A stretch of DNA of 44,461 nt from an uncultured Alphaproteobacteria bacterium (GTDB taxonomy: Bacteria; Pseudomonadota; Alphaproteobacteria; HIMB59), in contig CABYQR010000008.1 in assembly GCA_902521155.1 (NCBI GenBank), positions 1 to 44,461 of the forward strand, in the 5' to 3' direction. The position numbers and the translations under genes were made by a program. The notes beneath the pieces were generated by a model. That model was not told the origin of the DNA. It saw only the letters and a program-made list of their open reading frames with translations, and did no database searches. Within the stretch, counting starts at the first letter, position 1, and the number at the start of each line of letters is the position of its first letter. Of this stretch, positions 2 to 25,829 are shown piece after piece.

Positions 2-1174
2 AAAAAAATTAGAAATTATCCCATAACATATTTGGACTCTGCTGCTAGCACTCAAAAACCAAAATCAGTTATTGAATCCTTAACTAATTTTTATGAGAAT
101 TCATATGAAAATGTTCATAGAGGTATGAACTCTCTGAGTATCAGCGCTACAGATCAATTTGAAAGAACAAGAGAAAGCGTAAAAGATTTCATTAATGCCA
201 AATCATCTAAAGAAGTAATTTTTACTAGAGGCGCAACTGACTCTATAAATATTATAGCTAATTCTCTCATTAAAAAATTTCAAGATGGGGGTCAAGTGGT
301 TATTACTGAATTAGAGCACCATTCTAACTACCTTCCCTGGATGAAGATCTGCGATAATTCAAACTTAGAATTAAAAATAGTTCCAGTTAATGAAAATGGA
401 ATTATTGATGAGCAACAAATAATAGATATCTGCAGCGATACTACAAAAATACTAGCTATAACTCATATGTCTAATGTTACAGGGCAAATCTTAGATATTA
501 AAAAAATCAAATCTAGTATATCAAAAGATATCCTTATAGCTCTTGATGGATGTCAATCTATAGCTCATTGTAATATTGACGTTCAAGATTTAGACTGTGA
601 ATTTTATTCCTTTTCTTCTCATAAATTATATGGCCCATCGGGTGTAGGTATTTTATTCGGTAAACAAAAAATTCTCGAAGATATAGATCCCCCCTTTCTT
701 GGTGGCGGAATGATTAATGACGTATCTTTATCAACTTTTTCTTATGCAGATCTCCCTAATAAATTCGAACCTGGTACACCGTCTATAGAAGCTGTAGTTG
801 GTCTTAATGCTTCTCTAGAATATTTAAATAAAATTAATTTCTATAGTTATTTTGAAGAAGAAAATAAGATGAGAAATACTTTAATTGAAAGACTAAAAGA
901 TATTCCTTCAATTCAAATCTATGGCATTGATAAGCAAATAAATGCTAGCTCAATAGTTTCATTTAATATTATTGATAAAAATTATAATGATATTTCTACT
1001 TTTCTTGATCAGTATGGAATAATGATAAGAGGAGGGCAACATTGCTGTCAGCCTTTCATGAAAAAAATGAATATTCCTGGTTCTTGTCGTGCTTCATTTG
1101 GAATTTATAATGATATCAATGATATTGACATCCTAGTCGACTCTTTAGAAAAAACAGTTAAATTACTTCAATAA
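2..1174 (+). CDS. sufS: cysteine desulfurase SufS (5' end cut by the window)
   Basis: PLP-dependent group II cysteine desulfurase, which takes sulfur from cysteine for Fe-S cluster assembly in the SUF pathway. The frame is open to the window edge and reads YPITYLDSAASTQKP, the usual SufS N-terminal motif. The TTG at 32 is therefore an internal Leu codon, and the true start lies upstream. Counting from position 32, the PLP lysine is K198 in SFSSHKLYG and the catalytic cysteine is C338 in RGGQHCCQP; the conserved ELEHHSN motif is also present. The stop overlaps the next start (TAATG). The following DUF59 and A-type carrier genes mark this as the end of a suf operon, with sufB/C/D expected upstream. 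Family assignment is secure. Confidence 0.95.
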   Translation, partial: KKIRNYPITYLDSAASTQKPKSVIESLTNFYENSYENVHRGMNSLSISATDQFERTRESVKDFINAKSSKEVIFTRGATDSINIIANSLIKKFQDGGQVVITELEHHSNYLPWMKICDNSNLELKIVPVNENGIIDEQQIIDICSDTTKILAITHMSNVTGQILDIKKIKSSISKDILIALDGCQSIAHCNIDVQDLDCEFYSFSSHKLYGPSGVGILFGKQKILEDIDPPFLGGGMINDVSLSTFSYADLPNKFEPGTPSIEAVVGLNASLEYLNKINFYSYFEEENKMRNTLIERLKDIPSIQIYGIDKQINASSIVSFNIIDKNYNDISTFLDQYGIMIRGGQHCCQPFMKKMNIPGSCRASFGIYNDINDIDILVDSLEKTVKLLQ

Positions 1175-1564
1175 TGGTTGATAAAGAATTATCTGATTTT
1201 ATGCCTAAGGCAAACTCAGATGGAGAACTTGTGTTTGGTGAATTTTTATCTGAAGTCTCAAAGCCATTAGAAAAAAAAATAATTATTGATCAATTAACAA
1301 AAATTAATGACCCTGAGTTAGGTATAAATATTTATGATCTTGGTTTGATTTACGATATTGATATTGATAAATTTAATAATATCAAGATTTCCATGACTCT
1401 AACAACTGTCAATTGCCCTGTTGCTGATAGCTTTCCTTTAGATGTAGCAAAAAAAAGTCCATGAAATATCTAATTCAGGTCAAGTTAGTGTTAAACTAAC
1501 ATTTGAACCACCTTGGAATAAAGATATGATGAGCGAAGATGCTAGATTGGTATTAGGTTATTAA
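1174..1564 (+). pseudogene. sufT: SufT-like DUF59/MIP18-family Fe-S maturation protein, frameshifted at an A8 run
   Basis: The frame opened by the ATG at 1174 carries the DUF59 core (NDPELGINIYDLGLIYDI, then LTTVNCPVAD) but stops at 1462-1464 after 96 codons. Shifting by one base at the run of eight A (1449-1456) restores a protein of about 129 residues. Its restored tail reads VKLTFEPPWNKDMMSEDARL, the normal C-terminal signature of SufT-like proteins, and ends at the TAA 1562-1564, directly before the next ATG at 1565. Loss of one A is needed (a +1 change, not -1). The shift may be a sequencing or assembly indel, a recent mutation, or a site of polymerase slippage. The intact downstream half argues against long-standing decay. 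SufT-like proteins help mature Fe-S proteins. The position between sufS and the A-type carrier fits this role. Confidence 0.85.
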
Positions 1565-1900
1565 ATGTCCACTCCACTTTTTAAACTTTCTTCAAATGCA
1601 CAAGATCAAATTAGCCAACTATTGGGTAAGAACCAAGGTGCTATTGGTCTAAAAATTGCTCTTAATACAAAAGGGTGTGCAGGTTTAAGCTATGTTATGG
1701 ACTACGCCAATGAAAATAATATTGAAGGATGTGAGCTAGTTAATGATTATAAGTTCCCCCTCTATATCGATAATAAAGCAATTATGTTTGTTATTGGTAC
1801 TGAGATGGATTATGTCAAAGAAGAATTTGGTGAACGTTTCACTTTTAACAACCCTAATCAAACAAGTGAATGTGGTTGTGGCGAAAGCTTTCACGTTTAA
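1565..1900 (+). CDS. sufA: A-type iron-sulfur carrier protein (SufA/IscA/ErpA family)
   Basis: This 111-residue HesB/IscA-domain protein takes Fe-S clusters from the scaffold and delivers them to apo-enzymes. The three cluster-binding cysteines of the family are present: C38 (KGCAGLSY) and C103 and C105 (SECGCGESF). The length is normal. The ATG follows directly on the restored stop of the sufT-like gene, so the three suf genes look co-transcribed. Which A-type subfamily it belongs to (SufA, IscA or ErpA) cannot be fixed from sequence alone; the suf context favours SufA. It is the last recognisable suf gene here. Confidence 0.92.
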   Translation: MSTPLFKLSSNAQDQISQLLGKNQGAIGLKIALNTKGCAGLSYVMDYANENNIEGCELVNDYKFPLYIDNKAIMFVIGTEMDYVKEEFGERFTFNNPNQTSECGCGESFHV

Positions 1901-3657: not shown

Positions 3658-3696
3658 TAACGAAATTACATTAATTTAAAAATTAAAAAAAAATAC

Positions 3697-24830: not shown

Positions 24831-25829
24831 ATGGATTCCTTAGGTTTAGAGATATTAATTGGTACTTTAAAGATTTTTAGTTTTGTTGTTCCCGTTTTGG
24901 TTTCTGTGGCTTTGCTTGTCTATTTAGAAAGAAAAGTTTTAGGAGCCGTTCAATTGAGAAAAGGTCCTAATGTAGTTGGACCTTTTGGAATATTACAAAG
25001 CTTTGCAGATGTGATTAAATTAATAACTAAAGAAAATTTACTTCCATCAAGTTCAAATAAATTTTTATTTATTTTTGCCCCTATGCTAACTTTATTACTC
25101 AGTTTGATTGCCTGGGCAGTTATTCCTGTGAGCTCTACTTATGTGATCTCTAATATCAACATAGGAATTCTTTATCTTTTTGCTGTTTCTTCCTTTGGCG
25201 TTTACGGTGTGATACTAGCCGGATGGGCAAGTAATTCTAAATATCCTTTTCTAGGAGCTTTAAGATCTGCGGCTCAAATGATCTCCTACGAGGTATCTAT
25301 CGGTTTCGTAATTATAACTGTTTTAATTTGTGTGGGGTCGCTAAATTTAATCGACATAGTTGAAAGTCAAAAAAATCTTTGGTTTGCTATTCCCCTTCTG
25401 CCTATGTTTGTTGTTTTTATTATTTCAGTATTAGCAGAGACTAATCGACTACCTTTTGATCTTCCCGAGGATGAGGCAACCTTGGTTGCTGGTTTTTTCA
25501 CTGAATATTCATCCATTTCTTTTGGATTATTTTTCTTAGCCGAATACGCCAATATGATTTTAATGAGTTCTTTAACTGTAATTTTATTTTTAGGGGGCTG
25601 GTATCCGCCAATGGATATATTTCCTCTAAATGCCATTCCAGGGATAATTTGGTTTGGACTAAAAGTATTTTTAATTTTATTTGTATTTTTGTGGGTTAGG
25701 GCAACTTTTCCACGATATCGCTATGACCAGTTAATGAGGTTGGGTTGGAAGATATTTTTACCTTTGACATTAATTTGGGTAGTCATAACTTCCTCTTTTT
25801 TATTTTATTTTGGATTGTTACCTAACTAA
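24831..25829 (+). CDS. nuoH: NADH-quinone oxidoreductase subunit H
   Basis: Membrane subunit joining the peripheral arm to the proton pumps and forming much of the quinone channel. It is 332 residues long with eight or so helices. Conserved segments are [20 protein letters not shown] near the N terminus, [19 protein letters not shown] in the matrix-side loop with its acidic residues, and [18 protein letters not shown] near the C terminus. The gene is spaced tightly between nuoG and nuoI. Confidence 0.98.

Follow-up and report, generated by a model that had tools for sequence, protein, structure and literature searches.

The sufT-like gene and its two reading frames

The window, a contig of 44,461 nucleotides from an uncultured marine alphaproteobacterium of the HIMB59 lineage, starts with three genes on the forward strand in the order sufS, sufT and sufA. 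The first of these (32..1174) encodes a SufS-like cysteine desulfurase, which scores 465 bits against TIGR01979 (cut-off 475). Its start lies at or beyond the start of the contig, and its stop overlaps the start of the sufT-like gene by one base. The third gene (1565..1900), directly 3' of the sufT stop, encodes a SufA-like A-type carrier protein that is above the cut-off of TIGR00049 and also matches PF01521. The sufT-like (DUF59) gene between them is broken 1.4 kb from the contig end, at a run of eight A's (A8; 1449..1456) that follows c1448. The ORF from ATG 1174 contains 94 SufT-like codons and two stray codons before a premature TGA at 1462-1464, giving a 5' part (1174..1464) of 96 amino acids as read. 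The 3' part (1457..1564), consisting of 35 codons and TAA, is found in the +1 frame and holds the SufT tail (VHEISNSGQVSVKLTFEPPWNKDMMSEDARLVLGY) with nine nearly invariant DUF59 positions. Its stop, TAA 1562-1564, adjoins the sufA-like ATG at 1565, in agreement with an earlier note on this DNA, according to which the tail ends directly before the start of the next gene. No intact ORF runs through the conserved C-terminal motif, which is located in the next frame after the TGA. Analysis by tblastn placed residues 1–94 of the read-through SufT in frame 1 and residues 93–129 in frame 2.

Read as one protein, the two parts match TIGR02945, the SUF-associated family, over the whole length (E 5e-34), with 116.6 bits for the read-through protein and 72.9 bits for the fragment. 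The gathering score of PF01883 (23.5) is exceeded by both, with 58.2 bits for the read-through protein and 51.7 bits for the fragment. Based on these matches, we conclude that the split protein is not a product of chance. TIGR02945 is the best NCBIfam model for the read-through protein, but the equivalog cut-off of 143.4 bits is not reached, and the protein is therefore named SufT-like only. Solved structures of DUF59 proteins (1uwd, 3lno, 2cu6, 5ird) align through the sufT tail. The full-length match to TIGR02945, together with a match to all 129 residues in the closest relative, bear out the proposal that removal of one A at 1449-1456 yields a single protein. The gene is the only DUF59 match in the genome (78% complete), and neither a second sufT nor any other DUF59 gene was found there.

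The arithmetic by which a +1 (or -2) change is needed to restore the frame is correct. Two other routes to the tail were rejected. Restart at ATG 1461, which overlaps the TGA, opens the third frame, which ends after 12 codons and does not restore the tail. A ribosomal -1 slip at A AAA AAA (1449-1455) leads into the same wrong frame.

The sufT locus in related genomes

The relatives used for comparison belong to the HIMB59 lineage of marine alphaproteobacteria, and the named ones are mostly single-cell genomes of the AG- series. We found sufT in 45 of the 52 genomes of the genus, and the gene was intact, or open over its length, in 43 of the 45. The nearest relative, AG-325-G13 (G012), has seven A's (A7) at the site and an open frame with 96% identity over all 129 residues. 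The tail had been described as perfectly conserved, which holds for PPWNKDMMSEDARL, identical in AG-325-G13, but not for the tail as a whole, since one residue differs (codon 111, GAA/GAT, E to D). A 17.2-kb alignment of the window with AG-325-G13 (96.4% identity) contains two indels only, both of which represent one extra A in an A run of the window and lie at most 3.7 kb from the contig end. The second is located in an intergenic A9 run at 3685-3693, with one A more than in AG-325-G13.

The A tract is not conserved. Many relatives have GCT AAA AAA and some have A7; A8 is present in two relatives, where the frame is kept by a different next codon. The other broken sufT copy, in CM1_5m.P70 (G007), has indels different from that of the window. 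At this locus (L103) many genes are frameshifted within 12 kb, including both sufT and sufS, and because the sufT copy stands among several other such genes it is read as an assembly error in an indel-rich assembly. A split arrangement conserved among the relatives was rejected, given the one open frame in 43 of them. It could also be imagined that SufT is controlled by a programmed frameshift or a phase-variation switch, since an A7/A8 tract within a core gene could in principle act as a switch where mismatch repair is undetected, as in this genus. However, the variable tract, the in-frame A8 runs of two relatives and the finding that no relative with reliable sequence is off at sufT make such control highly improbable.

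In the seven genus genomes without sufT, sufS was likewise unmatched, in a search performed without a positive control. The absence of sufT was therefore rejected as a sign of dispensability, and the seven cases look like gaps.

Frameshifts and A runs across the genomes

The reference for a frameshift scan was G001, whose genome, also from this genus, consists of one contig; proteins encoded in 800 kb of it were compared with 444 kb of the genome under study, taken in sampled stretches. The sufT-like gene gave the only frameshift signal in the scan, which included 212 well-covered genes (197 kb), and a genome-wide pattern of split genes was not seen in these 444 kb. The scan detected 150 of 212 simulated one-base shifts (71%), so that a few frameshifts may have escaped it. 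Applied to AG-325-G13, the scan gave no frameshift signal; in AG-893-E21 (G051) it gave four, all on one contig, which points to local sequence quality. Three of the four were checked against close relatives and represent one additional A in A runs, twice in sufS and once in a dus gene (L091, 3440-3860 and 9430-9530). In AG-325-C06, another single-cell assembly, a +1 A insertion was observed in a gene that is probably sufB, judged by its length and by its position 5' of sufS (L101, 1800-1900). Single-A insertions are sporadic in these assemblies and occur in various genes.

A recurrent signal from the antisense ORF b_1_183571 of G001 was attributed to a spurious ORF and disregarded as an artefact. 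Also discarded as a gene frameshift was a T7/T8 difference at G000:C5:19674, located just upstream of a start codon and outside genes. Near position 25265 of the same contig (L156), where AG-325-G13 differs, there is an 11-base stretch, AGATCGGAAGA. It is identical to the first bases of a widely used Illumina adapter, and its occurrence could be due to chance or to an adapter trace in the assembly.

The earlier note had offered three explanations of the frameshift: a very recent mutation, an assembly error, or tolerance by slippage. The first two fit an indel that is private to one genome, whereas the third gained no support. A tolerated frameshift would imply slippage at the A8 run, by RNA polymerase or by the ribosome, so that some full-length SufT is made. 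The A8 run would permit the P-site lysine tRNA to re-pair one base on, the RNA polymerase of Buchnera deletes homopolymer bases at a low rate (PMC5574713), and Baranov et al. listed genes whose interruption is presumed to be overcome by slippage at 9A (PMC1088944). However, rescue here needs the loss of one A, or a +1 ribosomal slip, whereas transcription slippage at A/T runs in E. coli and Buchnera consists mainly of insertions; in Buchnera, 151 of 157 insertions but 16 of 57 deletions were in homopolymers (PMC5574713). The arrangement is found in no relative and so fails the comparative test of Baranov et al. (PMC1088944); no comparative sign of slippage use was found among the sufT relatives, and no other split gene among the genes checked in 444 kb. 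In the genes of this genome, A8 runs (82 observed, 72.5 expected) and A9 runs (33 observed, 30.4 expected) are not avoided relative to codon-shuffled controls, which suggests that slippage at A8 is probably not strong. Runs of at least 11 A's are avoided (2 observed, 8.1 expected). Taken together, slippage rescue of the sufT-like gene is improbable.

Coding runs of at least eight A's number more than one per two genes in the HIMB59 lineage. We consider it unlikely, though conceivable, that cells of this lineage, in which mismatch repair was not detected, differ from one another in a standing load of core-gene alleles (sufT, sufB, sufS and dus) that a +1 A reversibly switches on or off, partly buffered by slippage.

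Origin of the additional A

Most likely, no special gene-expression mechanism is involved, and the frameshift is instead a stray error of sequencing or assembly, or else a chance mutation that arose very recently. We lean towards a sporadic homopolymer indel of technical origin, introduced when the genome was amplified, the library prepared or the reads assembled. The locus would then be an ordinary sufT-like gene in a sufS-sufT-sufA cluster, with one A added to an A7 run. A single slip during replication, in the sampled cell or in a recent ancestor of it, is a less likely source of the extra A. The indel lies in a homopolymer, is absent from close relatives and is isolated among the genes checked, as is characteristic of homopolymer indels from sequencing or assembly. 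Judging from its named kin, we infer that the genome itself is a single-cell assembly. For the SCGC workflow behind the AG- series genomes, a published benchmark gives 3.0 indels per 100 kb, which corresponds to about one expected indel in the 44 kb of the window. Against a technical origin, the assembly looks clean elsewhere, and its coding indels are fewer than would be expected from the benchmark.

A genuine recent slip competes seriously with this reading, although we give it somewhat less credence. Here, replication slippage would have added one A in a lineage without mismatch repair, with loss or reduction of SufT. MutS had no match in any of the 52 genus genomes, the single-contig G001 included, and MutL gave only weak matches below the cut-off, whereas controls such as Caulobacter matched. 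Mismatch repair thus looks to have been lost in the lineage, and genuine slips in A runs are expected to be frequent too. The same loss of mutS and mutL is reported for deep-sea SAR11 (PMC12374537); for HIMB59 itself, we found nothing direct in the literature. That the tail is still conserved agrees with an event of very recent date. In S. aureus, SufT has an accessory role: the bacterium can live without sufT, and deletion mutants grow (PMC4982691). On the other hand, SufT is reported to be essential in M. tuberculosis (PMC9045647), and every genus genome that holds the locus has sufT. In addition, the benchmark error rate alone suffices for the indel, and the closeness of the site to the contig end and its restriction to one genome also argue against a genuine mutation.

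The 96-residue product retains the DPE and NCP motifs, but without the nine nearly invariant positions of the conserved tail it is predicted to lack activity. If the A8 run is real, translation would end 100 bases ahead of the sufA-like gene and not beside its start, possibly with weaker translational coupling to that gene. The main value of resolving the case is that a core iron-sulfur gene would not be wrongly reported as recoded or lost. As no examined genome of the genus yielded MutS, or MutL above the cut-off, genuine slips in homopolymers should occur often in these bacteria, which are abundant in the ocean, and telling them from amplification errors is a testable question.

The encoded protein resembles the SufT and DUF59 (MIP18-like) Fe-S maturation factors in its DUF59 domain, in the DPE, NCP and PPW..DMMS motifs and in the place of its gene between sufS-like and sufA-like genes. 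It differs from them in the broken frame and in a read-through score under the TIGR02945 cut-off. With the slippage-rescued poly(A) frameshifts of AT-rich bacteria, such as those of Buchnera and Blochmannia and the interrupted genes listed in PMC1088944, the locus shares a frameshift in an A run, a conserved downstream frame and an AT-rich genome (30% GC). Unlike those, which affect many genes, it is one isolated case that is not conserved and that needs the loss of one A, whereas slippage mainly adds bases. Homopolymer indel errors of single-cell or long-read assemblies, which leave the same sequence picture as a true single-cell mutation, have in common with this locus the surplus base in an A run, the isolated occurrence, the position near a contig end and the +1 A events in kin assemblies.
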